Source of the DNA: Cladochytrium replicatum
Taxonomy: Eukaryota > Chytridiomycota > Chytridiomycetes > Cladochytriales > Cladochytriaceae
NCBI GenBank assembly: GCA_025526935.1
Contig: JAHLKD010000076.1
Location: 1-64,000 of the forward strand
DNA length: 64,000 nt
Reading direction: 5' to 3'
Shown here piece by piece: positions 9,290-61,720 of the stretch. Under the pieces are notes generated by a model, which did no database searches, was not told the DNA's origin, and worked only from the letters and a program-made list of their open reading frames with translations. The translations under genes and the position numbers were made by a program. Each line of letters begins with the position of its first letter. Position 1 is the stretch's first letter.

Positions 9290-9336
9290 ATTTATCTTTT
9301 GGTCATTATGTTAGCAGAACACAAACTCTAGGCCTC

Positions 9337-9568: not shown

Positions 9569-9650
9569 CGTCGGCGCTAGGACTTGAACCTAGGCGGGGA
9601 AACCCCATGTGATTTCTAGTCACACTCCTTAACCACTCGGACACACCGAC
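9569..9650 (-). tRNA. tRNA-Ser(AGA), copy 1
   Basis: 82 nt. It folds as a class II tRNA: acceptor GTCGGTG/CGCCGAC, D arm TCCGAGTGGTTAAGGA, anticodon stem TGTGA/TCACA with loop CTAGAAA (anticodon AGA), long variable arm GGGGTTTCCCC, T arm with GGTTCAAGTCC, no encoded CCA. A T5 run follows within 15 bp downstream. It is identical to the copies at 53636 and 56740. A SINE starts 8 bp upstream of its 5' end. Confidence 0.96.
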
Positions 9651-9658
9651 TTGCTTAG

Positions 9659-9958
9659 GACCTCATAGTGGCTCAGTCGGTACGAATGCGACTTTTCGAA
9701 GCTAAACTCCGCGGTTCGAATCCTATAGGGGACTGGATTCGAATTTCCTACGAAATATATCTCTCGCAATATCGTGTCACGTGCAAGTACCGCGCCACAC
9801 CTCCTTCGATTCGCCATTGCCTTCGCTCCTCTTTCCTACGGCTCGCACGGCTCCCCAAGTACTGAAGATTCCAAATCTTGGTTGAAGTACACGTGGGTGA
9901 CATGTACTGATTAAGCATTGTCAATACATGTTATAACATTCAAAAAAAAAAAAAAAAA
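9659..9958 (+). mobile_element. tRNA-derived SINE, copy 1
   Basis: About 300 bp. The head is tRNA-like, with pol III box A TGGCTCAGTCGG and box B GGTTCGAATCC and a partly pairing acceptor (CCTCATA/TATAGGG). An unrelated body follows. The last ~110 bp resemble the local LINE tail: CCTACGGCTCGCACGGCTCC, then GGGTGACATGTA and ATAACATTC before A17. It begins 8 bp upstream of the tRNA-Ser 5' end, oriented away from it. TTAG flanks its 5' end and recurs after the poly(A) of the next copy (10270-10273). Confidence 0.9.
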
Positions 9959-9959
9959 G

Positions 9960-10269
9960 GACCTCATAGTGGCTCAGTCGGTACGAATGCGACTTTTCGA
10001 AGCTAAACTCCGCGGTTCGAATCCTATAGGGGACTGGATTCGAATTTCCTACGAAATATATCTCTCGCAATATCGTGTCACGTGCAAGTACCGCGCCACA
10101 CCTCCTTCGATTCGCCATTGCCTTCGCTCCTCTTTCCTACGGCTCGCACGGCTCCCCAAGTACTGAAGATTCCAAATCTTGGTTGAAGTACACGTGGGTG
10201 ACATGTACTGATTAAGCATTGTCAATACATGTTATAACATTCAAAAAAAAAAAAAAAAAAAAAAAAAAA
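9960..10269 (+). mobile_element. tRNA-derived SINE, copy 2
   Basis: Head-to-tail duplicate of the neighbouring SINE at 301 bp offset, matching essentially base for base apart from a longer poly(A) (10243-10269). It starts directly after the poly(A) of copy 1, as expected when the newer element inserts between the tRNA and an older one. Confidence 0.9.
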
Positions 10270-11556
10270 TTAGAAAATTTGTAAGCGCAGTATATTAATA
10301 TTCACGCCATGATCATTGGTACCTCACCTCTGGTTTTCCATCGCAACTGTGAGCCGTGTACCCCTGCTGCCCTTCTTTTCACCTCTGCTCCTCTCTCCCT
10401 TAGCTCTCCATTGACCCTCTCACCTGCTTCTCTTCTGAGCAGTCTGCTCACTAGCAGGGGCTACTCCTCTGCTTATCCCTTATCTCTCTCACTTGCCTCT
10501 GCTCTGCCTTCTGACTTTGCAAGTTCCCTGACCTTCCTAAAGTGCTCTGCACTTCTATTGCGCTCCCTTTCTGCTCTCTCTCCCCTGCTACCCTCAACCC
10601 TGATCTGCTTCCAACCCTCAAGCTTCTCTACATTTACACCTAGCTGCTACCTCTGCCCTTGGTGCCACCAACACTGCCACCACTACTGCCCCTGGTGCCA
10701 CCCACACTGCCACCACCATTCTTGACAGTTCAGCCACTTGCTCAGCCCCATCTCCAGCCTCATTACCTGCCGCCAATGATTCCATGAATGAGCTTACTTG
10801 TTCGCACTTCCTCTTGGACGACCTGCCGACCTCGCATAGAAGCTTCAAATTTGTCAAAGAATGTGCCGAATCCTTCACTTCTCTCCGATTTTCTGGTTTT
10901 GCTCGTCGCCCAATCAGGGACCTTCGTGTGTTGCTTCGCAAAGACCTTCCGTATACCGCTTACCATGGCATCCGCTACATCTCATTTCTCAACTCTGATT
11001 CTGTTGAATTTCTTTGTCGTTCTTATGCTGCTGACCTGATCCGCAAACACTTACCTGGTCGAGAAATCACTGATTTGGATGTGTCCCCTCCTTCGCATAC
11101 TAACCGTTCCGACTCTCTGCAACGCTATGACTCTATGCTCCATCAAAGTGCCAAGGTGATTGCTACTACGTCTGAGCCAGCTGTTGCATTGTTCTACCGC
11201 AATCTTGTTGATCCGTCTCTCATCTTTCTACGCTGTTGCATCTCCCTCGATTGTATGCCCCTTCGATGACCTCAGCTTCTGACCTTCGTTTGACCCAGTG
11301 ATTTGCTCTTTGCTGTTTTTTTTCTTCGCATTGTTGAGTGTTCTTTCTTTTCTTTATCCCTCACCTGTATTTGACACCTGAGCAGAGCCTGATGGGTAGT
11401 GAGTTTTAAGATCTCTGATTTCTATTTCGCTTTGCCCTCCGACTTGGGCGCTTCCCTATGTGCTGGTCCATGACCAGCTTGTAAGGCACTTTAGGTGTTG
11501 TTTTTTGTTATGCATTGTATAGGGTTAGTTGTATGTGCAAATTTAATAAATAGTGT
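10270..11556 (+). mobile_element. Decayed ORF1-only LINE derivative
   Basis: Homologous from end to end to the element at 51781-53072. The ORF1 homology begins at 10309 (MIIGTSPLVFHRNCEPCTP), shifts frame around 10610, resumes at 10784 (MNELTCSHFLLDDLPTS... YHGIRYISF) and shifts again near 11215, so no complete protein can be made. The 3' region keeps TGTGCTGGTCCATGACCAGC and GTATGTGCAAATTTAATAAA but has lost a clear poly(A). No endonuclease or reverse transcriptase is present. Third in the stack upstream of tRNA-Ser copy 1. Confidence 0.8.
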
Positions 11557-12300
11557 TGCCAATTTGCCATGTTAAATATTTAGGCAGCTAGCCCAGATAC
11601 TTCTGCCTTGGGTAGCACCAGCCACTCCACTGCCCCATTTTCAGCCTAAGACACTGCCAGTGCCCCCAATGGCTTATCTCCGGACCCTGATTATGTCTTA
11701 ACTGAGGAGCTCATTTCTTCTCTGAATCTTAATGCCAGCCCTGCAGTTAGCTTGTCCGCTCCACCTACAATCCTACTTCTGGCTTCTCCTTCTGTATGTC
11801 CTGGCGATCAACCTGACTTTTCCCCAACCATTGATGCGGTAGCTTGCCGGACTTTGCTTGCCCCTGAGCTGCCCACCTATTCCAATATATCTTCCCTCCA
11901 CTTTGCAGAAACTCATTTATACCTGTTCGCTTATCTGGTTTTACCTGCCGTCCCATCTCTGCTTTTCCTGACTACCTCATTCTGCACTTGCCTTCTGGGG
12001 CTTACCACACCATTCGCTATAGTAGTTTCATTGGCCTATTATGCCCATGCTATGGCTTATTCTTCTGATCTTTTTGTTGTGTTGTGTTTCCGACTTCCTA
12101 TTGAGCCCAAGTTTTTACCTTCGATTCTTGATCTTGCCCTTTGGCTGGGTCAGGTAAGCATGGGCTATCTCTGCATTAGTTACCACCACTTGTGCTCCCA
12201 GTTTACGTGTTTGTACTAACACTTGTATTTTGGATTGTGCCCGAGCAGGTGATATGTATTGACTTTGAACGAGTTAATACATATTATGAAATTCAAAGAT
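11557..12300 (+). mobile_element. Old LINE-related fragment with recognisable LINE tail
   Basis: The last ~90 bp (CACTTGTATTTTGGATTGTG, GGTGATATGTATTGAC, ATACATATTATGAAATTCAAA) align with the 3' end of the active-looking LINE family. The preceding 600 bp are diverged, with an open frame at 11752-12219 that I could not assign. Orientation is the same as the other members, and it is the outermost and probably oldest insertion in array 1. Confidence 0.65.
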
Positions 12301-13220
12301 TAAGAAAAACATAATGAGTTCAACATTTACATCAATTACAAATTTCTTACTGTTTTTCAAACCAATAATTGAAATATTTGAGCAAGTATTCATGCCAACT
12401 GAAGCGAACAATTGTGTTCATGTGCTGTATTTGGCTACCGTGAAACAAAGTGCAATCTTCTTGGCGTCTGTGGGAAGATATACTCGCCTTGTTTCAGGTT
12501 CGAAGAAGTTTGTCCAAAAACGAAAACAATATAAAGTTCGCCACTTGATAATTGTAATCCACTTCGGAACTGTGAGACAGTCAGATGTACAGCGATATGA
12601 CATAGCATTGTGGGTTTAGTCGGAAAGGGAGAACAAGGTACCGAATCGTTTTCACGTTCGTTCTGTGTCAGGTTTTTCGCACAACTAGAAAGTTGGTTGA
12701 AAATGTATTTGATGTATAATGAATGCGAAATAATCGATCAGTCGTCGTATCCGATCGTCTTTGTCCGCGGCCCAGCAGGAACTATTTGGAAACAAGTTAC
12801 AATTAGAAATATTCAAAGCAGCAGGCTTTAGTCCCACTCACTCGGGTAGCTGCGAGGCTCGTCTACGGGGTATTTGTAGCCCATTTCACGACGAATGGGG
12901 TATCCAACCGCAAAGAATGCCGGACCTATTTTGCACAATTCAGACTGGAACTGTGGACAGGAACGAACATGGACAAATACCGCCGATAGCCAAGACGAAG
13001 GATGCGACGATGGTAGGGTGGTGGTACAGGTTGTATTTGAAGTACCGGTAGAAGCTAGAACGTGACGGTCAGCATCCATGCCCGGCAACCCCGGATCTCT
13101 TCTTCACCTGGCGACTCCCATTTTCAATGCTATCCCCGATCAGTGGCTTTGACATTTCGCATTTCTCGCAACTTTCCAGTGGCTTTGACATCTAAAATTC
13201 TTTCTTTCCTACTAGAGAAA
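12301..13220. other. Intergenic, no gene recognised
   Basis: Open frames of 60-100 codons exist on both strands (for example 12314-12619 and 12761-13051). None shows a familiar motif or splice-supported extension. The last 150 bp are the 5' flank of the uL11m gene. Confidence 0.4.
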
Positions 13221-13655
13221 ATGTCGACCCCCCGCTTCCACACTATCAGAATCAGGGTGCCCGCTGGCAAGGCGTCGCCGTCGCCACCAGTCGGTCCGGC
13301 TCTAGGTCAGCGTGGAATCAAGTCGATGGACTTTTGCAAATCATTCAACGACAAATCCGCAATCTACTCGCCCGGAATTCCACTCCAAGTCCGCATTAAG
13401 GTCAACGCTGACAAATCATACAACTACACCATCTCTTCTCCACCAACATCATGGCTCATCCTCCGCGCTGCCGGAATCGAAAAGGGCGCGGCGAAACCTG
13501 GCTCGGAAACCGTCGGGACACTTTCGCTTAAACATGTCTACGAACTCGCAAAGATCAAGCATAATGATCCTACGATGCAGCACATGCCACTCAGGAACGT
13601 TGCTGCGGAAATTGTCGGGCAGGCAAGGAGCATTGGAGTGACAATCGTACATTAG
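13221..13655 (+). CDS. MRPL19: Mitochondrial large-subunit ribosomal protein uL11m
   Basis: Single exon, 144 residues from ATG at 13221. It has the uL11 N-terminal domain (IRIRVPAGKASPSPPVGPAL, the GKA...PPVGPALGQRG rRNA/release-factor loop) and a C-terminal RNA-binding domain (AGIEKGAAKPGSETVG, KIKHNDPTMQ, IVGQARSIGVTI). A bacterial-type uL11 of this length in a nucleus is normally the mitochondrial protein (MRPL19 in yeast, MRPL11 in human). The frame is open upstream to 13062 but without another ATG. There is no obvious cleavable presequence, as in many mitochondrial L11 proteins. Confidence 0.93.
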   Translation: MSTPRFHTIRIRVPAGKASPSPPVGPALGQRGIKSMDFCKSFNDKSAIYSPGIPLQVRIKVNADKSYNYTISSPPTSWLILRAAGIEKGAAKPGSETVGTLSLKHVYELAKIKHNDPTMQHMPLRNVAAEIVGQARSIGVTIVH

Positions 13656-46335: not shown

Positions 46336-46740
46336 GATTTGTTTTGAGCTTCATAATATTCATTCTTCAATCATAAACTGGTGCAAAATCCAAACACAAG
46401 TGTAAACGAATACACGTAAATTGGCAGCAAATGGGGAGCCATGCGCAAATCAACAAAAGCAGACACTATAGAATCACGAGCAGGAGACAAAACTAGCTCC
46501 ACCCAGACAGTTTGACGAAATGTGGTTCGTGTACAAAGAACAAGAACCCATTGGGAAAAGCAGGCAAAGGATTCTAGCACACATGTCTAAACACACTGGG
46601 ATATGGGCACATACTTCAGGGCCAGCATAACACTTCCTACAATGAGGCTGGGGGCTCAGAAACGAGCAGCCAAGCTGAAAAAGCAGGAGTAAACAAAGAT
46701 TGACTAATGTTGTAGTGAATCAGCATTGTGGGAGCAGGGT
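46336..46740 (-). mobile_element. Old LINE 3' remnant, outermost member of array 2
   Basis: The minus strand reads a decayed ORF2 C-terminus (FSQWVLVL, then VELVLSPARDSIVSAFVDLR, matching FSQWVLVLRALNRIWSN and VLSPAPDCILSAFVDLD of the intact LINE), followed by the LINE tail (AATTTACGTGTA, CACTTGTGTTTGGATTTTGC). Many substitutions and no clear poly(A). Same orientation as the rest of the array. Confidence 0.75.
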
Positions 46741-47081
46741 AAACTCCGTTACCTTGTGGTTGAGTAGAGTTGATCCTGAGACTCAGACACAACATTCAAC
46801 CATCCAGCATTTCATTTATACAGATACGGTTCGATTACTAAACTATTGTTCCCAATAAGTATATATTACTGCAATAGAGTCTTGTAACAATGAACTGAAT
46901 AATAATTTTTTTGATTGAAGAAAATTTTCTTTTTTTTTGAACTTCATAATATGTATTTATTGTCCAACCAATACATATCACCCGCTGGTGCAAGATCCAA
47001 ATACAAGTGTAAAAATACACGCAAATTGGCAGCACATGGGGAGCCGTGCGAGCCGTTGGAAAAGTAAAATGTTTCAAAACA

Positions 47082-50000
47082 CTAAGGCATATCCAAATCA
47101 ACAAAAGCAGACAAGATACAATCAGGAGCTGGAGACAAAACAAACTCATAACCAAGACAGTTTGACCAAATGCGGTTAAGTGCACGAAGAACAAGAACCC
47201 ACTGGGAAAAAGCAGGCGAAGGATAAAAAGGCTGTGGTGAAAGCATATCAATTGCAATGTCAAGAGGTAGGCGGGGATCGTCAGGCGGGCCTAGATCAAA
47301 ACTAGCAGACAAACTAGCACGCAAATGTAGACACACAGAGACATGGGCACGCGACACTTCAGGGGCATCATGACAGTTCCTACAACAAGATCGGGGGTTT
47401 GGAAACAGGCAGCCAAGCCGATATAGCAGGAACAAACGAAGACATACTGTTGGGAGATGTTGGTGTGGGGGTAGCAACAAAGGGTGACGAAGTTTCAAAT
47501 TGCAGACAGGGGCAAACGAAACTGCAATTGGTCCATTATGCGCAACAGCTAAAGACTGAAAATGCAACATCAACGGATGAAGTGGGGGCACAACAGGCAT
47601 AGGAACAATGAGATCATTGTGACAAGCGGAAAAATAAGGAGATGAACCATAACCAACTGGATATGACCGATAGAATTGCAACACAGCAGCTGGTAACAGA
47701 GGGCTGGAATCACTAGACCAGCGAGCAAACATACGTGCCTGAAGGTACTTCAGCCTGAACTCAAAAGTAGGAATTTGCGCAAACAGCAACAAACCAACAC
47801 GCGAAGTGGTATGGGCTAGCGAAAACAGACGACACAGTGCATGATAACAAAAACGCTCGAGTACCTGAAGCTGAGCAGTGGAAGGCCGAATAAGTGCTAA
47901 ACCAAACTCAAGTGAAGGTCTAATGAAAGACAAAAACAACAACCTTGCAACACGAGGAGCAGACCCACCAAAGTACGAGACATAAGGTGCAAAAAGATGC
48001 AATGAGGCACGAGCTTTCTCTAAGCGATGATCAATAGTTGCAGCAAGATCAAACCCTGCAATAGTAAAATAGTGACCAAGGTATCTAAATGAAACCTCGA
48101 CAGGGAGGGCAGAGCCATGAAGCTTCAAGGGGGTGGGTAACCATTGAGAAGATAACACAGCACACTTTGAAGCTGAAAACATAAAATGAGAAGCTAAAGC
48201 AAAATCTTCACAAATTTTCAATGCACGTTGGGCTTGCTCAGGGGTGGCAGAAAACAAAGCTATGTCATCAGCAAAAAATAATGAATTGAAAACAGGAGTG
48301 TTATAAGAAAACCTAGCAAGATGAGAAGATTCACAACGAAGGAGCTGTGCTAAAGGATTGATGAAAACTGAGTACAAGAACGGAGACAAAACAGAACCTT
48401 GAAAAAGACCTCGTGGAAGCAAAAACAAATCAGAAGCACGATTCTCTATAACAACCTGAGAAGAACAACGATCAAACATACTCATCAAAACAGAGATCAA
48501 ACGGTTTGGAATTCTGGGAAATTGACAAAGACGTTCCCACAAAAGAGGCCTATGCACAGTATATCATACGCTGCTTTAATATCTAAGAAAGTAACACAAT
48601 AAGGAAGAGCAGTGCAGGAAGCTCGTCGAAGGGTAGCATCTAATGCAAAAACACACTCAACACCTGAACGATTGGCCTGGAAACCAGCTTGGGCGGGATC
48701 AAGTTTACCAACATGAGCTACAAGCATAGGAAGCAGGGTACGCTCAAAGATTTTTCTATCAACATTGGTTAAAGTAATGGGGCGGTACTGACTAATATCA
48801 CCTATGGAACCCTTATTCTTCCAAACAGGTAACAACAAGCCAGCATTCCAGGCAGAGGGCGACAAACCTGAACGGAAAATAGCGTTTGAAAGTTGAACAA
48901 AAAGGATAGCAACATCAGAAGCTAACGGCTTAAATAACTCAGCTGGAATATGGTTTGGGCCAGGAGCAGAGTTGTTTGGGGAAGAACGAATAGCACAAAC
49001 AAAGTCACTAACACTAACTGACACAGAATCATTCAGCGCATGTAGACGAACGTGTTCTGCACTGGCAGAGGATTGTGCAAACTGAGTCTGATAAACAGAG
49101 GCAAAGTGATTGCGATAATGAGATAAAGAGGCAGGATCAGACAATAAACCACTTGCAGCTGAGCGCCGTTGATGACACCTACGCGCTGTGGAAAGAACTT
49201 TGCTAACCTCAGTTAAAGAACTAGGAGAAGAACTATACATATTGTTGCCAGGAGAAGAACTATACATATTGTTGCCAGAAGCCTCTCGAGCTCGCTGAGA
49301 AAGAGACCAAGAACGAAAAGCTTTGACACGCTCACGCGATAGCCGGTCACGCTCCAAGCGGCAATACTCAAGTAAAACAGGATCAGGATCATCACAGGAA
49401 GAAACAGCTAAATAGTGCTTATGAGCAAGTAAGTAGCTCTGTCGCAAGGCCACTAAATGCGGCGGCAACAATGGCAGGGCAGGGCGACGACGAACTAAAC
49501 TGGGGGGTCCAATGACACAAGCAGCACACAAAGTATTAAAGGACAAAATGATATCCAATGCAGAGTCAATACATCCCTGTGCAACATCCACAGACATTTG
49601 GGCAAAGGCGGGAGCTTCTAAAATTGGACTGAGCGCAGCATTGACATCAGCAAGGGTGGGATCAAAAGAAAAAACAGCTGTAACCGGAAAATGGTCAGAA
49701 GCCCAAGGCATAAACTCGCCGTCGGCTAGACGACTATGAACTATGTAAGAAATAGGATCACATTGAAGCAGAGGATTGACAAACAACAAATCGATAATGG
49801 AGTCACCATTGCGAGAAGAAAATGTGAGGTTATGACAGGAAGGGTGCTTAACTAGAGAGAAACTAGCGGCAGAAATAAATTGCTCAAACAACCTACCCCT
49901 ACGATTTGAAGAATGATCACCAGTAGCTAAAAAACGGGCATTGAAATTGCCCAAAAAAAGAACAGAGCACGGAGACGACGGGACATGTTGAGGAAGTGAA

Positions 50001-50374
50001 GCAATAAACTCTTCAAGGAAGGGGTCCTGAGCAATACCACACGGAGGCAAATAATACCCTCCAACCAAAAGCCCACGAAATGTAAACCATAGAGAGGTGC
50101 CACCATAACTAGAAACGAGACGGAAATCAGAAGCTCTACAAAGACTGCGATTGATAAAGACTCCCACACCAGCCCGTCGTGTACCCGATGACCCAGGAGA
50201 AAAACGAGGGTCAAAAATCAAATCTGGAGAAGGCAGCGGGTCTAAAGGAAAAAGGTGTGTTTCAGTCAGGAGCAGAAAAACAATGTGATTTGCGCGCATA
50301 AAACGAAACAGTGAATCAAGAACTCCAAAGCTCAAATTGCGACAATTGAAGGTACCAACTCGAACACTAATCAT
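47082..50374 (-). pseudogene. LINE ORF2 (APE endonuclease, reverse transcriptase), frameshifted
   Basis: Endonuclease motifs: VGTFNCRNLSF, LLTETHLF, FLGNFNARF, GDSIIDLLF, WASDHFPVTAVF. RT motifs in order: APGPNHIPAELFKPL, QYRPITLTNVDRKIFER, DPAQAGFQANRSGVECVFAL, FLDIKAAYD, RGLFQGSVLSPFLYSV, FFADDIALF, FRYLGHYFT. The C-terminal cysteine motif is CCRNCHD...HVSVC. The frame breaks inside FLDIKAAYD: an extra TA (GATATACTG against GATACTG at 58335 in the other copy) puts 48557-47082 in another frame. A 27 bp in-frame duplication (NNMYSSSPG repeated) and a 39-residue deletion after AVFSF distinguish it from the intact copy. Confidence 0.92.
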
Positions 50375-51474
50375 TGATGAAGATGGGTTGAGCGAGGCTG
50401 ACGTGCAATCCCGCGGGCACTGTCCAGCACAGTTTCCTGGGCATCCATGGGGAGCTGACCACGGACATACAGGAAAATAGCAGGATCAGTAACTGAACTG
50501 AGGATAGGTGCATATCTCTTGTGGACAACTTCCCTGACCGCAGCCTCCCGCTGCTCCAAAGGCAGAGTAGAGGCTCGGCGAAGAAAGTCAGGGTTTGATT
50601 CGTCAGTGGAAGCTTCCTGGGTGGAGAAGTGCGCACGGAGAGCAATTGCGGTTGAGCGAATACAGATAAAGGAAGCAATGTTGCGACCAACGAAACTGAT
50701 GTGGCGGATACCACGCACCACCTCATCGCCCAAGAGAGCCCTCAGCATGGTCCGCACAAAGCCGAGCCGCTGTCTCATGATGTCCTTGATGTACACAGTG
50801 GTCAAATCATCCACACGGGCCTGAAGATCAGCAGGTGGGGAGACCAGCAGCGGAGAGGTCGGAGGATAGAATACGACAGGCCGAGGGCCACGAAGGCTGA
50901 CATTCGAAGTGGGGTCACGACCAGCAAGGGCAGTCCTGAGAGCTTCTGTACGAGATTCAGCACTCAGTGTGGGGAGACTCTCAAGCACACGGGCACGGGC
51001 ATTGGCAGCAGCAGCGGCATAAGTGCGTGGACCACGATGTCCACGTGGGGCAGGTCGACTAGACGGGGGGCGAGGGCCAGGAGCACCAGAGTTCCCAAGA
51101 TCGTCCTGAATTGGAGGATTATCATGCAGTTGTCTAGGGGGAAGGCACACAGGCGCATCCACATCATCATGGCGGGAGACAGGGGCAACCGGAGGTGAAG
51201 GCGAAGGCAGCGGCCTCCCAAAGCGACCCACCAGATCCTCGGCCATATCACGACAAACACTAAAAAATTCAGCAGGAGTGTCCCTCGGCAAGTGTGCAAG
51301 CATAGGATCCAGCATCGCCAACGGATCAAAGGTTGCACAAACAGATCGCATCTGAGTGAGAACGACACAGAGATCGGCCAGAGATGCAACACTCGAGGGA
51401 GCAGCCACAGCAGCAAGAACCCGGACACCCGGCAGATGTGATCGGGAACGAGAACGGGAGCGACCACGGGGCAA
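50371..51474 (-). CDS. LINE ORF1 protein
   Basis: 367 residues: an RS-dipeptide start (MPRGRSRSRSRSHLPG), a Pro-rich middle, then a conserved C-terminal domain (LRALLGDEVVRGIRHISFVG, SFICIRSTAIALRAHFSTQ, PAIFLYVRGQLP). The GIRxISF block also occurs in the ORF1-only elements (YHGIRYISFLGS), showing a shared ORF1 fold. ORF1 proteins of this kind bind the element RNA and act as chaperones; no CCHC knuckle is present here. It ends TGA overlapping the ORF2 ATG. Confidence 0.8.
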   Translation of the reverse strand: MPRGRSRSRSRSHLPGVRVLAAVAAPSSVASLADLCVVLTQMRSVCATFDPLAMLDPMLAHLPRDTPAEFFSVCRDMAEDLVGRFGRPLPSPSPPVAPVSRHDDVDAPVCLPPRQLHDNPPIQDDLGNSGAPGPRPPSSRPAPRGHRGPRTYAAAAANARARVLESLPTLSAESRTEALRTALAGRDPTSNVSLRGPRPVVFYPPTSPLLVSPPADLQARVDDLTTVYIKDIMRQRLGFVRTMLRALLGDEVVRGIRHISFVGRNIASFICIRSTAIALRAHFSTQEASTDESNPDFLRRASTLPLEQREAAVREVVHKRYAPILSSVTDPAIFLYVRGQLPMDAQETVLDSARGIARQPRSTHLHQ

Positions 51475-51591
51475 TTCATGTTCAGCAGGTCTTTTGGCGT
51501 GTCGGTCACGTGATCGGAAGTCACGTGCAGCGCGGCATGCGGCGCATCAGGCAGCTGCGCATGCGGAGCGCTGGGAGGCGGCATTGATTTT

Positions 51592-51592
<1 letters not shown>

Positions 51593-51647
<55 letters not shown>
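51593..51647. repeat. (GA)n microsatellite at the LINE 5' junction
   Basis: About 27 GA dinucleotides lie exactly between the 5' end of the near full-length LINE and the poly(T) of the next element. The AGAG expected at this junction (see array 2) could have seeded the expansion. Confidence 0.9.
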
Positions 51648-51652
<5 letters not shown>

Positions 51653-51780
51653 TTTTTTTTGAACTTCATAATATGTATTTATTGTCCAACCAATACATAT
51701 CACCCGCTGGTGCAAAATCCAAATACAAGTGTAAAAATACACGTAAATTGGCAGCACATGGGGAGCCGTGCGAGCCGTAG
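51648..51780 (-). mobile_element. Severely 5'-truncated LINE (133 bp, 3' UTR only)
   Basis: T13 (poly(A) on the minus strand) followed by the LINE tail up to GAGCCGTAG, the same tail as the full copy. Fourth member of array 2 counted from the tRNA. Confidence 0.9.
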
Positions 51781-53072
51781 TTTTTTTTTTTTTTTTTTTT
51801 TTGAACAATATTATTTATTTATTTGCACATACAATGCATAACAATAAACAACACCCAAAGTGCCTTACAAGGTGGTCGTGGACCAGCACATAGGGAAGCG
51901 CGCAAGTCGGAGGGCAAAGCGAAATAGAAATCAGAGATCTTAAAAACTCATTCCTGTGACTACCCGTCAGGCTCTGCTCAGGTGTCAAATACAGGTGAGG
52001 GATAAAGAAAAGAAAGAACACTCAACATTGTGAAGAATATAACAGCAAAGAGCAAATCACTGGGTCAAACAAAGGTCAGAAGCTGAGGTCATCGAAGGGG
52101 CATATAATCGAGCGAGATGCAACAGCGTAGAAAGATGAGACGGATCAACAAGATTGCGGTAGAACAATGCAACAGCTGGCTCAGACGTAGTAGCAATCGC
52201 CTTGGCACTTCGATGGAGCAGAGAGTCATAGCGTTGCAGAGAGTCGGAACTGTCAGAATACGAAGGAGGGGACACATCCAAATCAGTGATTTCTCGACCA
52301 GGTATGTGTTTGCGGATCAGATCAGCAGCATAAGAACGACAAAGAAATTCAACAGAATCAGAGCCGAGAAATGAGATGTAGCGGATGCCATGGTAAGCGG
52401 TATACGGAAGATCTTTGCGAAGCAACACACGAAGGTCCCTGATTGGGCGACGAGTAAAACCAGAAAATCGGAGAGTAGTGAAGGATTCGGCACATTCTTT
52501 GACAAATTTGAAGCTTCTATGCGAGGTCGGCAGGTCGTCCAAGAGGAAGTGCGAACAAGTAAGCTCATTCATGGAATCATTGGTGGCAGGTGATGAGGCT
52601 GGAGATGGGGCTGAGCAGGTGGCTGAACTGTCAAGAGTGGTGGTGGCAGTGTGGGTGGCACCAGGGGCAGTGCTGGTGGCAGTGTTGGTGGCACCAAGGG
52701 CACAGGTGGCAGCGACGTGTAAATGTGGAGGAGAAGCAGGGAGAGTTGGAAGCAGATCAGGGTTGAGGGTAGCAGGGGAGAGAGCAGAAAGGGAGCGCAA
52801 TAGAAGTGCAGAGCACTTTAGGAAGGTCAGGGAACTTGCAAAGTCAGAAGGCAGAGCAGAGGCAAGTGAGAGAGATAAGGGATGAGCAGAGGAGTAGCCC
52901 CTGCTAGTCAGCAGACTGCTCAGAAGAGAAGCAGGTGAGAGGGTCAATGGAGAGCTAAGGGAGAGAGGAGCAGAGGTGAAAAGAAGGGCAGCAGGGGTAC
53001 AAGGCTCACAGTTGCGATGGATAACCGGAGGTGAGGTGCAAATGATCATGGCAGAGAATCATTCAGATCCGT
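51781..53072 (-). mobile_element. ORF1-only LINE derivative, intact copy
   Basis: About 1.3 kb: a 22 nt poly(A) (T run 51781-51802), a distinct 3' UTR ending ATATTGTTCA before the A run, and one complete ORF1 (52057-53049). No endonuclease or RT sequence. A decayed homologue covers 10270-11556 in array 1, so it is a real repeated family rather than one truncated LINE. Truncated LINEs here lose their 5' end, whereas this one keeps ORF1 and its own tail. Confidence 0.85.
52057..53049 (-). CDS. ORF1 protein of the non-autonomous ORF1-only element
   Basis: 330 residues, apparently undamaged. Ser/Leu-rich N-terminus (SAPLSLSSPLTLSPASLLSS), an Ala/Thr-rich linker (GATNTATSTAPGATHTATTT), then a conserved domain: DLPTSHRSFKFVKECAESF, RDLRVLLRKDLPYTAYHGIR, YISFLGSDSVEFLCRSYAAD, ATTSEPAVALFYRNLVDPS. 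It shares the GIRxISF block with the LINE ORF1. It presumably binds its own RNA and borrows the LINE ORF2 enzyme. Confidence 0.75.
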   Translation of the reverse strand: MIICTSPPVIHRNCEPCTPAALLFTSAPLSLSSPLTLSPASLLSSLLTSRGYSSAHPLSLSLASALPSDFASSLTFLKCSALLLRSLSALSPATLNPDLLPTLPASPPHLHVAATCALGATNTATSTAPGATHTATTTLDSSATCSAPSPASSPATNDSMNELTCSHFLLDDLPTSHRSFKFVKECAESFTTLRFSGFTRRPIRDLRVLLRKDLPYTAYHGIRYISFLGSDSVEFLCRSYAADLIRKHIPGREITDLDVSPPSYSDSSDSLQRYDSLLHRSAKAIATTSEPAVALFYRNLVDPSHLSTLLHLARLYAPSMTSASDLCLTQ

Positions 53073-53076
53073 AGAG

Positions 53077-53323
53077 TTTTTTTTTTTTTTTTGAACTTCA
53101 TAATATGTATTTATTGTCCAACCAATACATATCACCCGCTGGTGCAAAATCCAAATACAAGTGTAAAAATACACGTAAATTGGCAGCACATGGGGAGCCG
53201 TGCGAGCCGTAGGAAAAGTAAAATGTTTCAAAACACTAAGGCATATCCAAATCAACAAAAGCAGACAAGATACAATCAGGAGCTGGAGACAAAACTAACT
53301 CATAAGCAAGACAGTTTGACCAA
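53077..53323 (-). mobile_element. 5'-truncated LINE (about 250 bp)
   Basis: Poly(T) 53077-53092, the LINE 3' UTR and the last ~35 codons of ORF2 (ending AFVDLDMP-stop). AGAG stands on both sides (53073-53076 and 53324-53327), a 4 bp target duplication. Confidence 0.9.
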
Positions 53324-53327
53324 AGAG

Positions 53328-53627
53328 TTTTTTTTTTTTTTTTTGAATGTTATAACATGTATTGACAATGCTTAATCAGTACATGTCACCCACGTGTACT
53401 TCAACCAAGATTTGGAATCTTCAGTACTTGGGGAGCCGTGCGAGCCGTAGGAAAGAGGAGCGAAGGCAATGGCGAATCGAAGGAGGTGTGGCGCGGTACT
53501 TGCACGTGACACGATATTGCGAGAGATATATTTCGTAGGAAATTCGAATCCAGTCCCCTATAGGATTCGAACCGCGGAGTTTAGCTTCGAAAAGTCGCAT
53601 TCGTACCGACTGAGCCACTATGAGGTC
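53328..53627 (-). mobile_element. tRNA-derived SINE, copy 3
   Basis: Same 300 bp family as 9659-10269, minus strand, poly(T) 53328-53344. Box A and box B are intact. It is flanked by AGAG on both sides (53324-53327, 53628-53631), and its 5' end lies 8 bp upstream of tRNA-Ser copy 2, the same distance as copy 1. Confidence 0.92.
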
Positions 53628-53635
53628 AGAGACAA

Positions 53636-53717
53636 GTCGGTGTGTCCGAGTGGTTAAGGAGTGTGACTAGAAATCACATGGGGTTTCCCCGCCTAGGTTC
53701 AAGTCCTAGCGCCGACG
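53636..53717 (+). tRNA. tRNA-Ser(AGA), copy 2
   Basis: 82 nt, identical to the copies at 9569 and 56740; anticodon loop CTAGAAA. A T4 run (CGTTTTC) appears about 30 bp downstream. It is preceded by the six-element array 2. Confidence 0.96.
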
Positions 53718-53884: not shown

Positions 53885-55904
53885 CAAGATTCCTGGTTCG
53901 TGGAAAGGAACGGGCAACGAAAATCCAGCTCCGGGATCCGCTGCTCAACGGCGTAGCACGTGCTAGCGGACGCTCGCAGGGAAGGAGTATCTACTCGTCG
54001 AAACTTTCAGTAAGTATCTGCGAAAGTGGTCACCAATTCTGTGATCACACTTCACTCGATAAAAGTCACCGTTGAGAGGGAAGTTTATTGTATTAAATCC
54101 TCAAGCGTTTGTTTCACTTTCTACAGCAACGACGCTTGTTTTCGACTGGTGAAGCAGGAGATGCATCTGAAAGTACGTCACGCAATTTCGGCAGAACTCT
54201 AAGGCGAACACTTTACACCACCGTCTCCCTCGGTGCCGGCGCTTACGTCGGTGGTGCATACTACACTCTTCATGAACCCGACCCGGCCGCATCTGCTCCA
54301 CTCACACCGACTTTCCGCAAATTCTGCATCGAAAACGTTCCCCTTTGCTCAACAATCCGTGGATTTCGTAAAGAAAGCCGAAGGGACCGATTACCAGAAG
54401 CTTTTATGAGGACTGGAAGAAACAGGTCGAAACAGTTCAGCAGACCACGTTAGATGCAGCTAAGAACACCTACGAAACGTTCAACAGTTCCGTGGAAACT
54501 GCGAAAAAGAGTTACGATTACGCGCGACAGCGGGTGGAAAAGACGAGTAGCTTGATCATGGAGGGATTTTAATGCGAAGAAAACCACAACCGAAACATGC
54601 GATCGTGCGGTTCAATTCTATTAGACTGGGAAAGCACATATGAGTTCCGGTGTGGATATGGCAAAGGAAAAGGTCGAATCTCTTCAGCATAGCTTTTGAA
54701 ACTTTGAAAAGCAAAGTGATGGGAGCACCTCCGCCTCCACCAATAACAAAGTCTGATAAGGAAACCACGAAAGAGGACATTGAAACGCTCCCCAAGCAAC
54801 TCGCGGACCTCATTGCTGCGATTCGATCGACCGTGATCCCCGATCAGCAGGATGGAACACCATACCACGTTGTCGCAGCCTCCGAAAACCTCACCCTTTC
54901 TCTTCTCACCTTAACCGCCGGAGACGCGGAAAAGGGTATCCCGTACATTGTGCAATCGCTCTCCCATCTCCAAAAACATCTCGCCCAGCTCGACGACATC
55001 AAGCGCGCAGCTATCGACGCAGCACTCGCAAAGCAAACCACCGAGCTCGAAGCAGGAACCCAAACCCGGCTCGCCATGCTAGCCGGCGAACTGCCCCTCG
55101 AGCGATCTGAAGCCCTGTCCGCTCAACAACTCAAGCTGCGCAAAGAGTTTGAGCGGGAGATCAGAGCACGGCTGGACACCGAGCGCCAGGGCCGCCTTGC
55201 CAAGCTGAACCAACTCGAGCTGAAGCTCAAAAATCTCGAATCCCTGGCCATCCACGCTGGCGACGCCGTCCGCTCCTCGACGTCCGTACACAAACTCTGG
55301 GCCGCGTTCGACGCCGCCCGGCTCTCAGTCCACGCCGATCCGACACAGAGGCAGCTCAACCTGACATTCAAATCCCTCGTCCAAATCGGACAAGCGGACC
55401 CCGTCGTCTCTACCGTCCTGTCCGCTCTGGACCTCGACACACTCGGCACTCATCCCGGCACCGGCGTCCCATCGCACACGGACCTTCTGGAACGCTTCCA
55501 CACTGTCGCGCGCGCAGTCCGTAGAATCCAGCTGATGCCTGTCGACGGCGGACCTCTTTCGTACGCTATCTCTCGCGCGCTGAGTCTGGCGGTCATCAGG
55601 AAGCGAGGGATCGTTGTAGGCGACGATGTCGAAGCTGTGCTTGCGAGGGCGGAGCATCGTTTGGAGGAAGGGGATGTGATGGGTGCGACGAGGGAGGTAG
55701 TGGGCGGTTTGAAGGGCTGGCAGGCCATGGTGGCGCGCGATTGGATTGAGGAGGCCAAACGGCATTTGGAAATCAAACAGGCGCTCAAGGTAAGAGCTGT
55801 TATCGTGCTTTTTGATAAAAGTGGACTGATTTTGGCGGGACGGTTTGTTTTAGGCCATTGAAACTCGTCTGGTGTTGTTGCGATTAGCAAGCATCCCGGA
55901 ATAG
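53885..55904 (+). CDS. MIC60: MICOS subunit MIC60 (mitofilin), with several apparent homopolymer frameshifts
   Basis: Main exon 54127-55789 and last exon 55854-55904 (ends LASIPE-stop). An upstream exon ending 54009 (SSKLS, then GTAAGT) is likely; the start codon was not found. A basic N-terminus leads to an inner-membrane helix (LYTTVSLGAGAYVGGAYYTL) with HEPD after it, then coiled coil (WKKQVETVQQTTLDAAKNTY), and a mitofilin domain (ESLAIHAGDAVRSS, HKLWAAFDAARLSV, ARAEHRLEEGDVMGATREVV, LKGWQAMVARDWIEEAKRHL). MIC60 forms crista junctions in the mitochondrial inner membrane. Between 54340 and 54697 the frame holds only if one base is dropped at C4 (54340-54343) and at three T4 runs (54402, 54568, 54694); a TAG at 54622 is also unexplained. 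From 54710 the frame is clean. Confidence 0.85.
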
Positions 55905-56739
55905 ATTGTACCTTGCTTCGTTTGATCATTTCTGAAAACGATAGCGCTGTTGCATGCAAGCACCCAAACAGTATAAACCACCTCTCACCCATTGCCTTGC
56001 AAATCTTCGGTGTGGCAGCAGCCTGTTATCACGCTGGAGCGGTTGGGAACAGATGGAAATGGTGCTTCAGTTGGAAGATTTGCAAGGCAATGGTGCTTCA
56101 GTTGGGAGCTTGCTGAATCAAAGATTGTTTTGAAACTGGGTAATTCTTTAGGAGATTGACCAGCTCAGAAAATGATTGGAAAGACATTCTTGAGCGATCC
56201 GCTTAAATCACAATTCATCATACTGAAGAACAGTTTCTTCTCTGATATTGGCAGACAGACTTCGGCACTTTTGTAGAGAGTCGGTTTAAATAGCGCTGAA
56301 TTTCCACAGCCCGTGCAAGGTCGCAAACATCCTCAATTTGCTCATCAATCTCCTCAACTTTTTCTTCCAGCGTTTATACTCATTCACATCTCTATCATTC
56401 ATGCTGCCACTCAATTCCAGCTTCAGATAATCGCTTGCTGAGAGCAGGTCTCAGCAAGCAGGTCTGTATGGACTTCATGCATTTCATTGTAGAACTCCTG
56501 AAACCCATCCTCACCCCCAACATGTTCATGTGTTTGTTTGAGAGCCCTAATTGGGGTTGGGCTCTCAACTACACAAAATTGGCGTCGAAATATATTTAAA
56601 CACGTCTGCAAACTGTGTGTAGTGCCCTCATATCTCAGTTTCAGTAAAGGCACTCGAGTTGCAATGCTATTCTTTTCATTTATGATTCATGAACCGATAC
56701 CTGTTGCACTAACGTGCGAGGTGAAATTAGGTGTTCAAT
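55905..56739. other. Intergenic between MIC60 and tRNA-Ser copy 3
   Basis: No gene. A small duplicated ATGGTGCTTCAGTTGG motif lies near 56058 and 56091, and open frames are under 80 codons. Confidence 0.45.
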
Positions 56740-56821
56740 CGTCGGCGCTAGGACTTGAACCTAGGCGGGGAAACCCCATGTGATTTCTAGTCACACTCCT
56801 TAACCACTCGGACACACCGAC
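56740..56821 (-). tRNA. tRNA-Ser(AGA), copy 3
   Basis: 82 nt, identical to the other two. A LINE begins 11 bp upstream of its 5' end. Downstream there is only a T3 in the first 20 bp, so termination may be less efficient. Confidence 0.96.
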
Positions 56822-56832
56822 TTATTGCATTT

Positions 56833-59815
56833 GTCTCCGTGCCTTGTTCTTTTTTTGGGCAATTTCAATGCCCGTTTTTTAGCTACTGGTGATCATTCTT
56901 CAAATCGTAGGGGTAGGTTGTTTGAGCAATTTATTTCTGCCGCTAGTTTCTCTCTAGTTAAGCACCCTTCCTGTCATAACCTCACATTTTCTTCTCGCAA
57001 TGGTGACTCCATTATCGATTTGTTGTTTGTCAATCCTCTGCTTCAATGTGATCCTATTTCTTACATAGTTCATAGTCGTCTAGCCGACGGCGAGTTTATG
57101 CCTTGGGCTTCTGACCATTTTCCGGTTACAGCTGTTTTTTCTTTTGCTCCTCCCAATGCCAGCACTCCCTCTGCTGCACCCCCCCACAAGCGCTGGGCTG
57201 CTCATCTGTTGCGTGAACCTGCTGTCTTTCAAGCAATGGATGATGTGGGACATTTGTTTTTTGATCCCACCCTTGCTGATGTCAATGCTGCGCTCAGTCC
57301 AATTTTAGAAGCTCCCGCCTTTGCCCAAATGTCTGTGGATGTTGCACAGGGATTTATTGACTCTGCATTGGATATCATTTTGTCCTTTGTTACTTTGTGT
57401 GCTGCTTGTGTCATTGGACCCCCCAGTTTAGTTCGCCGTCGCCCTGCCCTGCCATTGTTGCCGCCGCATTTAGTGGCCTTGCGACGGAGCTACTTACTTG
57501 CTCATAAGCACTATTTAGCTGTTTCTTCCTGTGATGATCCTGATCCTGGTTTAGTTGAGTATTGCCGCTTGGAGCGTGACCGGCTATCGCGTGAGCGTGT
57601 CAAAGCTTTTCGTACTTGGTCTCTTTCTCAGCGAGCTCGAGAGGCTTCTGGCGACAATATGTTTAGTTCTTCTCCTAGTTCTTTAACCGAGGTTAGCAAA
57701 GTTCTTTCTACCACGCGTAGGTGTCATCAACGGCGCTCAGCTGCAAGTGGTTTATTGTCTGATCCTGCCTCTTTATCTCATTATCGCAATCACTTTGCCT
57801 CCGTTTATCAGACTCAGTTTGCACAATCCTCTGCCAGAGCAGAACACGTTCGTCTACATGCGCTGAATGATTCTGTGTCAGTTAGTGTTAGTGACTTTGT
57901 TTGTGCTATTCGTTCTTCCCCAAACAACTCTGCTCCTGGCCCAAACCATATTCCAGCTGAGTTATTTAAGCCGTTAGCTTCTGATGTTGCTATCCTTTTT
58001 GTTCAACTTTCAAACGCTATTTTCCGTTCAGGTTTGTCGCCCTCTGCCTGGAATGCTGGCTTGTTGTTACCTGTTTGGAAGAATAAGGGTTCCATAGGTG
58101 ATATTAGTCAGTACCGCCCCATTACTTTAACCAATGTTGATAGAAAAATCTTTGAGCGTACCCTGCTTCCTATGCTTGTAGCTCATGTTGGTAAACTTGA
58201 TCCCGCCCAAGCTGGTTTCCAGGCCAATCGTTCAGGTGTTGAGTGTGTTTTTGCATTAGATGCTACCCTTCGACGGGCTCCCCGCACTGCTCTGCCTTAT
58301 TGTGTTACTTTCTTAGATATTAAAGCAGCGTATGATACTGTGCATAGGCCTCTTTTGTGGGAACATCTTCGTCAATTTCCCAGAATTCCAAACCGTTTGA
58401 TCTCTGTTTTGATGAGTATGTTTGATCGTTGTTCTTCTCAGGTTGTTATAGAGAATCGTTCTTCTGATTTGTTTTCGCTTCCACGAGGTCTTTTTCAAGG
58501 TTCTGTTTTGTCTCCGTTCTTGTACTCAGTTTTCATCAATCCTTTAGCACAGCTCCTTCGTCGTGAATCTTCTCATCTTGCTAGGTTTTCTTATAACACT
58601 CCTGTTTTCAATTCGTTGTTTTTTGCTGATGACATAGCTTTGTTTTCTGCCACCCCTGAGCAAGCCCAACGTGCATTGAAAATTTGTGAAGATTTTGCTT
58701 TAGCTTCTCATTTTGTGTTTTCACCTTCAAAGTGTGCTGTGTTATCTTCTCAACGGTTACCCACCCCCTTGAAGCTTCATGGCTCTGCCCTCCCTGTAGA
58801 GGTTTCATTTAGATACCTTGGTCACTATTTTACTATTGAAGGGTTTGATCTTGCTGCAACTATTGATCATCGCTTAGAGAAAGCTCGTGCCTCATTGTAT
58901 CTTTTTGCACCTTATGTCTCGTACTTTGGTGGGTCTGCTCCTCGTGTTGCAAGGTTGTTGTTTTTGTCTTTTATTAGACCTTCACTTGAGTTTGGTTTAG
59001 CACTTATTCGGCCTTCCACTGCTCAGCTTCAGGTACTCGAGCGTTTTTGCTATCATGCACTGTGTCGTCTGTTTTCGCTAGCCCATACCACTTCGCGTGT
59101 TGGTTTGTTGCTGTTAGCGCAAATTCCTACTTTTGAGTTCAGGCTGAAATACCTTCAGGCACGTATGTTTGCTCGCTGGTCTAGTGATTCCAGCCCTCTG
59201 TTACCAGCTGCTGTGTTGCAATTCTATCGGTCATCTCCAGTCGGTTATGGTTCATCTCCTTATTTTTCCGCTTGTCACAATGATCTCATTGTTCCTATGC
59301 CTGCTGTGCTCCCACTTCATCCGTTGATGTTGCATTTTCAGTCTTTAGCTGTTGCGCATAATGGACCAATTGCAGTTTCGTTTGCCCCTGTCTGCAATTT
59401 GAAACTTCGTCACCCTTTGTTGCTACCCCCACACCAACATCTCCCAACAGTATGTCTTCGTTTGTTCCTGCTATATCGGCTTGGCTGCCTGTTTCCAAAC
59501 CCCCGATCTTGTTGTAGGAACTGTCATGATGCCCCTGAAGTGTCGCGTGCCCATGTCTCTGTGTGTCTACATTTGCGTGCTAGTTTGTCTGCTAGTTTTG
59601 ATTTAGGCCCGCCTGACGATCCCCGCTTACCTCTTGACATTGCAATTGATATGCTTTCACCACGGCCTTTTTATCCTTCCCCTGCTTTTTCCCAGTGGGT
59701 TCTTGTTCTTCGTGCACTTAACCGCATTTGGTCAAACTGTCTTGGTTATGAGTTAGTTTTGTCTCCAGCTCCTGATTGTATCTTGTCTGCTTTTGTTGAT
59801 TTGGATATGCCTTAG
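56833..59815 (+). CDS. LINE ORF2, 5'-truncated but otherwise open
   Basis: About 993 codons in one frame. The N-terminal ~160 residues of the endonuclease are missing (starts just before FLGNFNARF); the remaining endonuclease motifs (GDSIIDLLF, ASDHFPVTAVF), all RT motifs (including RGLFQGSVLSPFLYSV and FFADDIALF) and the C-terminal CCRNCHD...HVSVC are present without stops. It has the 39-residue segment (APPNASTPSAAPPHKRWAAH onward) that the other copy lost. Transcription of a promoter-less truncated copy is doubtful, but the intact RT suggests recent insertion from an active source elsewhere. Confidence 0.92.
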
Positions 59816-59966
59816 TGTTTTGAAACATTTTACTTTTCCTACGGCTCGCACGGCTCCCCATGTGCTGCCAATTTACGTGTATTTTTACACTTGTATTTGG
59901 ATTTTGCACCAGCGGGTGATATGTATTGGTTGGACAATAAATACATATTATGAAGTTCAAAAAAAA
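56833..59966 (+). mobile_element. 5'-truncated LINE with undamaged reverse transcriptase
   Basis: Homology to the near full-length copy starts at GTCTCCGTGC (56833), inside the endonuclease domain, and runs to a short poly(A) at 59959-59966. The orientation is again 5' end toward the tRNA-Ser. No target duplication is obvious (CATTT before, CGCTT after). Confidence 0.92.
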
Positions 59967-61720
59967 CGCTTCACTTCTTCCTTTTTTTACAGGTCACTCA
60001 CTTTCATTGGTTGTCCCAGCTTCTTCTTCAGCTCGTCGCCCAACTTTTCGTTCCCACTTAGGGAGTTCAATTATTGATTTGTTTTTTGCTTCTACTTATG
60101 TGACAGCTTCCTCTTATTTAGTGCATGATCAACCCCAGTCTATGGCTCCCCATCCTTCAGACCATTTTGCAGTGACCTGTTCATTTTCTTTAGCTGGCCC
60201 AGATCCTCAGGCCACTGTGCCTCCTCCTCTACCTTCTTGGAATCTCCCATTGTTAAAGGATGAAGTTATTCGTAAGTCGCACAGAGAAACTGCTAAGATT
60301 CTGCTTCCTCCAACATCAGAGGCGCTAACAGCAGCATTGGAACCACTTCAGGTCCCTGTGGGGACTTCTCTTTCTCGTGCAGTGGCCCAGGGAGCAATTG
60401 ATTCTGCATTTCAAATTATAGTTGATTTTGTTGAGGCAACAGCAGTTCTGACATTGGGACCACCAACACCTCGTCGTAGAGCACCAGCGACCACTCCTTT
60501 GCCCCCTGAGATTGCTTTGTTGCATAGTAAGGCTCGTTCAGCATTCCGTGACTATTATTCCCTCTTTCACCACAATTCTTCTGACCTCTTCTTCCTTTTC
60601 TAAGAACTCGCCAACGTGATAGTCACAAAGCATTCAAATCAGCTCTGAGATCACACAGGCGTAAGACAAAAGCAATTTTTTTTGATGACCCTAGTTCTTC
60701 ATCAGTGCCTTCTCTTCTGAAACATGTGTCTCATGCTCGGCGCTGTGCTAACTTTCGTACTTCAGCTAATGGTTTAGATTTTGATCCTCAGTCTTTAGCC
60801 AAATATTCTGATCATTTTGCTAGTGTCTACAATGCTCAAGCTGCTGACCCAGTTTCACCTTCAATTGTTCTGTGTGATTTTCAGCTGCCATTGGATGTTG
60901 AAGCTTTTGTTCTAGCTATTAGGGACTGCCCTTTGGAGTCTGCCCCGGGTCATGATCGTCTGCCTGCAGAACTTTATCGCCCAATTTCAGCTATTCTTGC
61001 TCCATTGTTCTTGCAACTTTCTCAGTCCATTTTTCGCAGTAGTCTTACACCCACTTCATGGAATCTTGGGCTTTTGCACCCAGTTTGGAAGCAACGTGGT
61101 ACGCTTGGTGACATTACTAATTATCGCCCCATTACTTTTTCGTGTGTTGCCCAGAAAATTTTTGAGCGAGCTTTGTTGCCACATCATTACTCTGCTATCA
61201 TGCTGCCCAAGCTGGATTTCAGTCAACGCTCGGGAATGGAATGTGTTTTTGGTCTTCAGGCATGTATCTCACATGCGTCTAATGCCAAGGTTCCTTGGGT
61301 TGCTGGTTTTTTAGATATTCAAGCAGCTTATGACACCACAAATCGTGCAATTCTTTGGGCTGAGCTTCTTCTAGGGGAGTACCGCTGCCATTTGTTTTTG
61401 TTTTGAAGTCTCTGTTTGAATTTTGTTCTTCCAGAGTGGTTGTTGCAAATTGTTTTTCAGATGCTTTTGATTTGTTTAGACGTTTGTTTCAATTTCTGTT
61501 CTCAGTCCACTTCTCTATATCACTTTTCTTGATCATCTACCAAGGCTCCTCCGACCATTTGCCCACCTATAACACTCTTTCATCCTGCCAAACCACAATA
61601 TAATTCTTTTTCATTTGCAGATGATTTGGCCTTGTTTGCACTTACTTTGGATGCTATGCAGGTTCTTCTCTCTGTTTGTGAACAGTTCACCCAAGCTCGT
61701 TACTTGCCCATAACCATCCC
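59967..61720 (+). pseudogene. Diverged second LINE family member, decayed, 5'- and 3'-truncated
   Basis: Starts directly after the poly(A) of the previous LINE and is again homologous from inside the endonuclease (GSSIIDLFFASTYVTASSY, HPSDHFAVTCSFSLAG). RT motifs follow in two or more frames: APGHDRLPAELYRPIS, NYRPITFSCVAQKIFERALL, GMECVFGLQACIS, FLDIQAAYDTTNRAILWAEL, then FADDLALFALTLDAMQ near 61615, where recognisable similarity ends. Protein identity to the first LINE is low enough to be a separate subfamily. Same orientation, deeper in the stack, hence older. Confidence 0.85.

Follow-up and report, generated by a model that had tools for sequence, protein, structure and literature searches.

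Retrotransposons stacked a few base pairs upstream of tRNA genes in Cladochytrium replicatum

Why should three tRNA genes in one stretch of DNA each carry a row of retroelements that all point the same way? The stretch in question, here called the window, is the first 64 kb of contig JAHLKD010000076.1 of Cladochytrium replicatum (GCA_025526935.1), taken from a 198-contig assembly of 50.5 Mb. It contains three tRNA-Ser(AGA) genes, and on the 5' side of each lies a stack of long and short interspersed nuclear elements (LINEs and SINEs). An initial annotation, made from the window alone, had proposed that the elements target tRNA genes, that each new insertion lands between the tRNA gene and the earlier ones, and that the specificity is for the serine isoacceptor. 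Genome-wide analysis bears out the first two ideas and overturns the third. LINEs with an apurinic/apyrimidinic-type (APE-type) endonuclease, together with a SINE, most probably insert by target priming, guided to the region of the transcription start by the RNA polymerase III (Pol III) complex on promoters with A and B boxes.

ARAGORN and cmscan placed the three tRNA genes where they had first been annotated and on the same strands, and BLAST with elements cut from the window reproduced the stacks of four, six and two elements, in which every 5' end faces the tRNA and every poly(A) tail points away from it. Stack A belongs to the tRNA gene at 9569..9650 on the minus strand (54.7 bits in cmscan). 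From the tRNA outward and on the plus strand, it consists of a SINE at 9658..9957 (repeat family D4, recognised by sequence reading and BLAST), a second SINE at 9959..10257 whose 299 bases are identical to the first, an element termed LINE-B at 10270..11600 that contains open reading frame 1 (ORF1) only, and a decayed LINE-type unit at 11601..12310, the last three assigned by BLAST. Stack B faces the plus-strand tRNA gene at 53636..53717 and runs along the minus strand, beginning with a SINE at 53330..53627 that is flanked by a 4-bp target duplication, CTCT (duplication scan, BLAST). It continues with a 5'-truncated fragment of the second family, LINE-A, at 53091..53324 (BLAST), a LINE-B of 1.29 kb without reverse transcriptase (RT) at 51783..53070 (ORFs, Pfam, BLAST), a 5'-truncated LINE-A tail of about 122 bp at 51659..51780 (BLAST), a LINE-A with a (CT)n 5' end at 46940..51650 (ORFs; Pfam domains Exo_endo_phos_2 and RVT_1) and, outermost, a decayed LINE-A-like 3' part at 46340..46910 (BLAST). 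According to the ORF list, this LINE-A has its ORF1 at 50374-51546 and its ORF2 in two frames at 48500-50485 and 47085-48563, and the LINE-B encodes an ORF1-like protein of 333 amino acids at 52060-53058, all on the minus strand. Stack C, next to the minus-strand tRNA gene at 56740..56821, comprises two plus-strand elements: a 5'-truncated LINE-A at 56833..59966 (ORFs, Pfam, PDB, BLAST), in which ORF2 is open and retains the C-terminal part of the endonuclease, the RT and, judged by eye, a Cys/His motif near its end, and LINE-D at 59968..61720 (outer end approximate; Pfam), a decayed relative. The gaps between tRNA and nearest element measure 7 bp (9651-9657), 8 bp (53628-53635) and 11 bp (56822-56832); the first had been given as 8 bp, and the other two are unchanged. 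Inner LINE-A pieces are 97-100% identical, whereas the identity to the LINE-A 3' region falls to 79-81% in the tail of the outermost unit of stack A and to 71-72% in the outermost unit of stack B; the two LINE-B copies are 94.5% identical to each other. None of these families has a further match in the window (BLAST, E ≤ 1e-5), as the initial annotation had stated.

Could the three stacks simply be copies of one another? Outside the elements, the three loci have no more than about 89-95 bp in common, i.e. the tRNA and a few bases, the flanks on the 3' side of the tRNA are unlike, and so are the order and the content of the stacks; they are not one segmental duplication. The same holds on the genome scale, where the arrangement might have spread from a few founders, each a tRNA gene with its stack, by segmental duplication or gene conversion. 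Common flanks do exist in the locus pairs L022/L023, L142/L139 and L153/L152, but the loci vary in tRNA type, in junction and truncation point and in the order of their stacks, and such an origin is refuted for the bulk of the loci and retains hardly any probability.

The 5' ends of the elements were also located genome-wide. A pattern for the SINE head (at most 3 mismatches) found 109 copies and its reversed control none, and 5' flanks were evaluated for 96 of the 109 (100 were listed, copies with the same flank counted as one, and a few were unfetched or lay too close to the end of a locus). Head to head with a tRNA gene recognised by ARAGORN are 37 of the 96, at a median distance of 5 bp, with 35 at 2-19 bp and two at 55 and 60 bp, where a short tail intervenes. 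Another 50 are stacked, their 5' end adjoining a poly(A) tail that belongs to a LINE-B (29), a LINE-A (11) or a further SINE (10). The remaining nine were sorted by eye; two of them (L062, L093) face tRNA-like genes that ARAGORN missed, three (L019, L102, L115) abut one tRNA-like unit of a dispersed repeat, and the last four are considered below. In total, 92 of the 96 SINEs are located at tRNA-type genes or in stacks. For LINE-A, which has 181 5' ends in the genome, 20 were sampled by position from 100 listed, skipping loci already fetched and thus not strictly at random, and all 20 lie at a tRNA or at the tail of another element: five next to tRNA or tRNA-like genes, 13 behind tails and two at a tail with a piece from the 5' part of a tRNA after it (seven of the 20 flanks had no script tag and were sorted by eye). 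LINE-B has 39 5' ends, and the 20 sampled in the same way conform as well, ten at tRNA or tRNA-like genes and ten after tails. The 5' end of LINE-B is diffuse, and the conserved start motif is separated from the tRNA or tail by up to some 70 bases. Nine of the ten tRNA-side cases are near ARAGORN tRNAs and one is at a degenerate tRNA-Phe-like sequence (L188); at L195, a piece of the repeated tRNA-like unit lies between the element and the tRNA.

Proximity to tRNA genes and orientation thus hold genome-wide as the initial annotation had anticipated, and the restriction to serine does not. All three tRNAs of the window are Ser(AGA), which is what had suggested targeting of this isoacceptor, but the SINEs alone face 25 tRNA types (by ARAGORN anticodon), and SINE, LINE-A and LINE-B sites combined cover all 20 amino-acid types, with Tyr contributed by a LINE-B site (L184) and Cys by L002 and L003, where the element is 27-30 bp away. 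Serine specificity is refuted by this count, and we give it practically no credence.

The association is equally evident when viewed from the tRNA genes. A set of 62 was assembled by Rfam and Ser-pattern searches regardless of elements, whereby Rfam scored the best candidates only (62 matches); from its list, thirteen places (nine in SINE loci, four unfetched) and one partial match were left out, L142 and L153 were dropped because their flanks equal those of L139 and L152, and two extra tRNAs inside loci were added. An element in the expected direction lies within 350 bp upstream of 56 of the 62, and in 39 of these 56 the first match is within 18 bp. Chance is no explanation for such an association. 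Two of the six flanks without a nucleotide match hold coding sequence of a diverged LINE ORF2 (E 3e-13 and 1e-9). Among 23 tRNA genes with both flanks read to 1.2 kb, 21 have an upstream element, starting at 1-174 bp and in 19 cases within 62 bp, as opposed to three with a downstream element, 65-710 bp away and always reversed. Other Pol III genes are different: no element was found upstream of any of the six 5S genes read, out of eight 5S matches in the genome (in L053 the upstream sequence extends just 235 bp to the contig end), or upstream of either of two U6 genes, which in comparison with 56/62 corresponds to a Fisher P=3e-7. Downstream, elements occur at two 5S loci, L053 and L057, at distances of about 0.8 and 1.4 kb. 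This avoidance suggests that the A-box/B-box (TFIIIC-type) promoter matters, or else that selection removes insertions at 5S and U6 genes. As for the location of the 5S matches, five of the eight (L053-L057 being among the eight) are no farther than about 2.3 kb from the end of a contig and perhaps subtelomeric.

Selection could also be invoked in a more radical way, namely that insertion is random and that elements survive only ahead of tRNA genes, where they are harmless. The promoters of tRNA genes are internal and upstream insertions therefore tolerable, and the empty upstream regions of 5S and U6 genes would fit as well. However, selection alone gives no peak of distances at 2-10 bp in a single orientation; many sequence-identical young SINEs are found at tRNA sites or in stacks, and the downstream elements are the mentioned three in 23 flanks, all reversed. 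Selective retention as the whole explanation is therefore very improbable.

Which feature of the tRNA genes is recognized? An indication comes from a target that is not a tRNA gene. The dispersed repeat mentioned above holds a unit of about 100 bases with A-box-like and B-box-like motifs (by eye) and a T run behind them, and this unit is used as a target too. The three SINE insertions into it are independent, with duplications of 4 bp (L102), 3 bp (L115) and 0-1 bp (L019), and their junctions lie 12-16 bases ahead of the A-box-like motif (by eye). This spacing equals 5-9 bp plus the seven acceptor-strand bases, as in a tRNA gene, and it seems that the internal promoter, not the identity of the tRNA, fixes the point of insertion. 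In a search in which 40 matches were scored of 120 candidates, 20 further copies of the unit were read (L204-L223), 18 of them uninterrupted and two with a LINE-A near the same place (L207, L208, by eye). The repeat itself has several copies spaced about 4.8 kb apart and pointing the same way (C15, C61, C197), an arrangement expected of long terminal repeats (LTRs) or of tandem copies, and it recalls the Helenus LTRs that the accessible part of one study derives from small-RNA genes (PMC10886601).

In principle, the endonuclease or the ORF1 protein could recognize the DNA directly, for example at the A or B box and without Pol III factors. That all targets, including the non-tRNA unit, have a tRNA-like A/B-box region in common (motifs by eye) is compatible with this, but the spacers at the cut site vary among tRNAs and show no motif by eye (no motif search was run), and we regard direct recognition as unlikely. 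A further alternative is that an unspecific endonuclease passively uses open, nucleosome-poor or melted DNA at busy tRNA start sites. The cuts are indeed near the expected Pol III start, and target duplications are short, 0-4 bp in all cases but one, which suggests that both nicks are made in a small region. Of 91 SINEs, 23 have flanking repeats of 2-4 bp, and one more has a duplication of 52 bp that includes 44 bp of a tRNA-Gly; in shuffled pairings about 8.5% have any repeat. Against a passive mechanism, 5S (0/6) and U6 (0/2) genes are not targeted upstream, nearly all SINEs (92/96) are at tRNA-type genes or in stacks, and the strict orientation needs an asymmetric guide, so that this explanation, too, appears improbable.

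The idea that elements farther out are older, formulated initially for the window, is supported both by the window identities given above and by the SINEs of the whole genome. The median divergence is 0.39% for tRNA-adjacent SINEs (n=37) and 0.78% for stacked ones (n=46; one-sided Mann-Whitney P=0.0014), whereby four of the 50 stacked copies were too short and omitted, and one at 33.7%, probably misaligned, was retained. An exact match to the majority sequence over 255 positions is found in 17 of the 37 tRNA-adjacent SINEs, which implies recent activity.

As to the machinery, LINE-A is by its domain content an APE-type non-LTR retrotransposon, with an APE-like endonuclease (Exo_endo_phos_2, 2e-10) followed by an RT (RVT_1, 7e-30) in ORF2, for which the best PDB matches are the L1 ORF2-type chains 8c8j and 8sxt (E 3e-23 to 4e-23). 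A Cys/His motif near the C-terminus was noted by eye; in the ORF2 frame of 1003 aa, Pfam detected no RNase H at E ≤ 0.1. Searches with ORF1 yielded nothing in Pfam, nor in the PDB at E ≤ 1. LINE-A has a poly(A) 3' end and is frequently 5'-truncated, also at tRNAs; 276 tails stand against 181 5' ends, counted with unlike patterns and unlike mismatch limits. The product of LINE-B is the 333-aa protein alone, which is related to LINE-A ORF1 (26% over 136 aa, E 6e-8), and LINE-B therefore looks like an ORF1-only derivative. The LINE-D RT is 43% identical to that of LINE-A. The SINE has a 3' end that, as judged by alignment, is partly common with LINE-A: positions 175-207 match the LINE-A 3' region at 91-94%, and the tail matches the LINE-A tail at 88%. 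The SINE head contains A-box-like and B-box-like motifs by eye, and cmscan did not find a tRNA in it even at E ≤ 0.1 (L009). As the SINE is tRNA-targeted as well, the specificity is placed in the LINE machinery, acting in trans. Stray RNAs appear to be treated alike. A stack at a tRNA-Lys(TTT) gene contains, between LINE-B and LINE-A, a U6-like retropseudogene with an A tail (L181, C66:265138-265226; 34.5 bits, under the Rfam cut-off), which indicates that the machinery determines the target and the template does not, and in the L034 stack a tRNA-Cys 3' fragment of about 30 bases with an A run lies between a LINE-A tail and a SINE.

Taken as a mechanism, a retrotransposon ribonucleoprotein would dock on TFIIIC/TFIIIB in the assembled Pol III complex, the endonuclease of ORF2 would nick near the Pol III start site, and the poly(A) RNA would be copied there by target-primed reverse transcription. 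Each insertion would leave the promoter intact, and thus the next could land at the same place and push the older one outward. We consider this explanation highly likely. It embraces LINE-A, LINE-D, diverged relatives, the ORF1-only LINE-B and the SINE, whose site is mostly 2-20 bp upstream of tRNA-type Pol III genes and near the expected Pol III start. Several observations weigh against such guidance by the Pol III complex. Four of the 96 SINEs are head to head with LINE-A, three with its 5' region (L022, L025, L088) and one with its body (L035), and no tRNA is present in the bases read. Target duplications of at least 2 bp accompany just 24 of 91 SINEs, a count in which A-rich duplications would be masked by the poly(A) tail. 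In 17 of the 56 occupied tRNA flanks the first match is only at 21-284 bp, and of the six flanks without a nucleotide match, those of L004 and L046 look empty and those of L137 and L156 are ambiguous. Finally, the 5S genes of known fungi rely on TFIIIC and TFIIIB as well, and that they are untouched here is not what plain docking on TFIIIB predicts, although selection could explain it.

The window contains several other features. A Tet_JBP-like oxygenase domain is encoded at 506-1423 (E 2e-8, just under the Pfam cut-off) and a DEAD/DEAH-box helicase on the minus strand at 2965-4392 (E 7.5e-15), near the contig start. At 8673-9294, some 275 bp away from where the first tRNA-Ser gene has its 3' end, 33-bp tandem repeats whose core is the palindromic GGACGGTCCGTCC form two blocks, and 12-base tandem repeats are found at 24002-24821 in two blocks of a repeated gene region (family D1). 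Between stacks B and C lies a Mitofilin (Mic60) coding sequence (54644-55858, E 6e-52). The initial annotation regarded the host as a fungus; a large chitin synthase family (73 matches genome-wide) agrees with this, but the same model also matches 4 of 14 prokaryotic controls.

How do these elements compare with known ones? The following is drawn from the accessible portions of the papers cited. The closest known elements are TRE5 and NLTR-A of Dictyostelium, and the elements described here probably work like them. TRE5 of D. discoideum inserts 44-54 bp upstream of tRNA genes in opposite transcriptional orientation and also at 5S genes, and its ORF1 protein contacts TFIIIB (PMC5911963, PMC5006619). 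With TRE5-A our system shares the non-LTR type, an ORF1 plus an APE/RT ORF2, the upstream position and the opposite transcriptional orientation (PMC5911963). It differs from TRE5 in distance (SINE median 5 bp, 35/37 at 2-19 bp), in the absence of elements upstream of 5S genes (0/6), and in having a SINE, an ORF1-only partner and a fungal-type host. In D. discoideum, 61% of the tRNA genes have any TRE (PMC5006619), compared with 56/62 of those read here. NLTR-A of D. purpureum inserts 2-6 bp upstream of the mature tRNA and carries an RNase H after the RT (PMC5006619), and the initial assumption that a site at about 8 bp is without precedent thus cannot be maintained. The place is nearly the same as that of our 37 SINEs, whose distances extend to 10 bp and beyond, but LINE-A has no detectable RNase H at the threshold given above, and neither a SINE nor stacks, both present here, are mentioned in the accessible portion of PMC5006619. 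On the features tested, the system belongs to neither: distance and 5S targeting separate it from TRE5, and RNase H from NLTR-A. Ty3 of budding yeast also integrates at tRNA genes, a few bp at most from the Pol III start and via contact with TFIIIB (PMC5006619, PMC5911963), but is an LTR element that uses an integrase, in contrast to the poly(A)-tailed LINEs with their presumed target-primed insertion. The Dada transposons of fish target tRNA and other small RNA genes (PMC8869645), but they are DNA transposons that insert inside the genes, in groups named for the main tRNA type targeted.

Tabulated non-LTR elements targeting tRNA genes come from dictyostelids only (PMC5911963), in yeasts a tRNA preference is given for LTR elements only (PMC7175516), and for the Yarrowia LINE Ylli, LINE-made copies of tRNA genes are speculated on, tRNA targeting not being stated in the accessible text (PMC5014426). 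No fungal tRNA-targeted LINE or SINE was found in the literature searched, which included PMC5014426, PMC6875170 and PMC10085805 and had most subscription papers and preprints outside its range, and no tRNA-targeted SINE from any host was found in the literature searched, with most subscription papers again outside it. Judged by our searches, the present system is the first of its kind in a fungus and the first to include a SINE partner.

What does this mean for the biology of these elements? Within the literature searched, tRNA-gene targeting by LINE-type elements is extended past the social amoebae. We consider it probable that a LINE lineage, together with its SINE, the ORF1-only derivative and stray retrocopies of U6 and tRNA, has the Pol III start region of tRNA-type genes as its practically exclusive home, in a precise and reusable safe-harbour system that arose independently of that of the dictyostelids. 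As nearly all tRNA genes are occupied and the promoter complex would be read instead of tRNA identity, each tRNA gene would accordingly build up a time-ordered stack, and the stacks are natural stratigraphic columns for dating retrotransposon activity. The SINE, being about 300 bp long, young and nearly invariant, offers a ready-made reporter for the steering of an APE-type LINE to the Pol III complex, and a LINE that inserts in one orientation a few bp from a gene with an internal promoter is a model for site-directed target-primed insertion.

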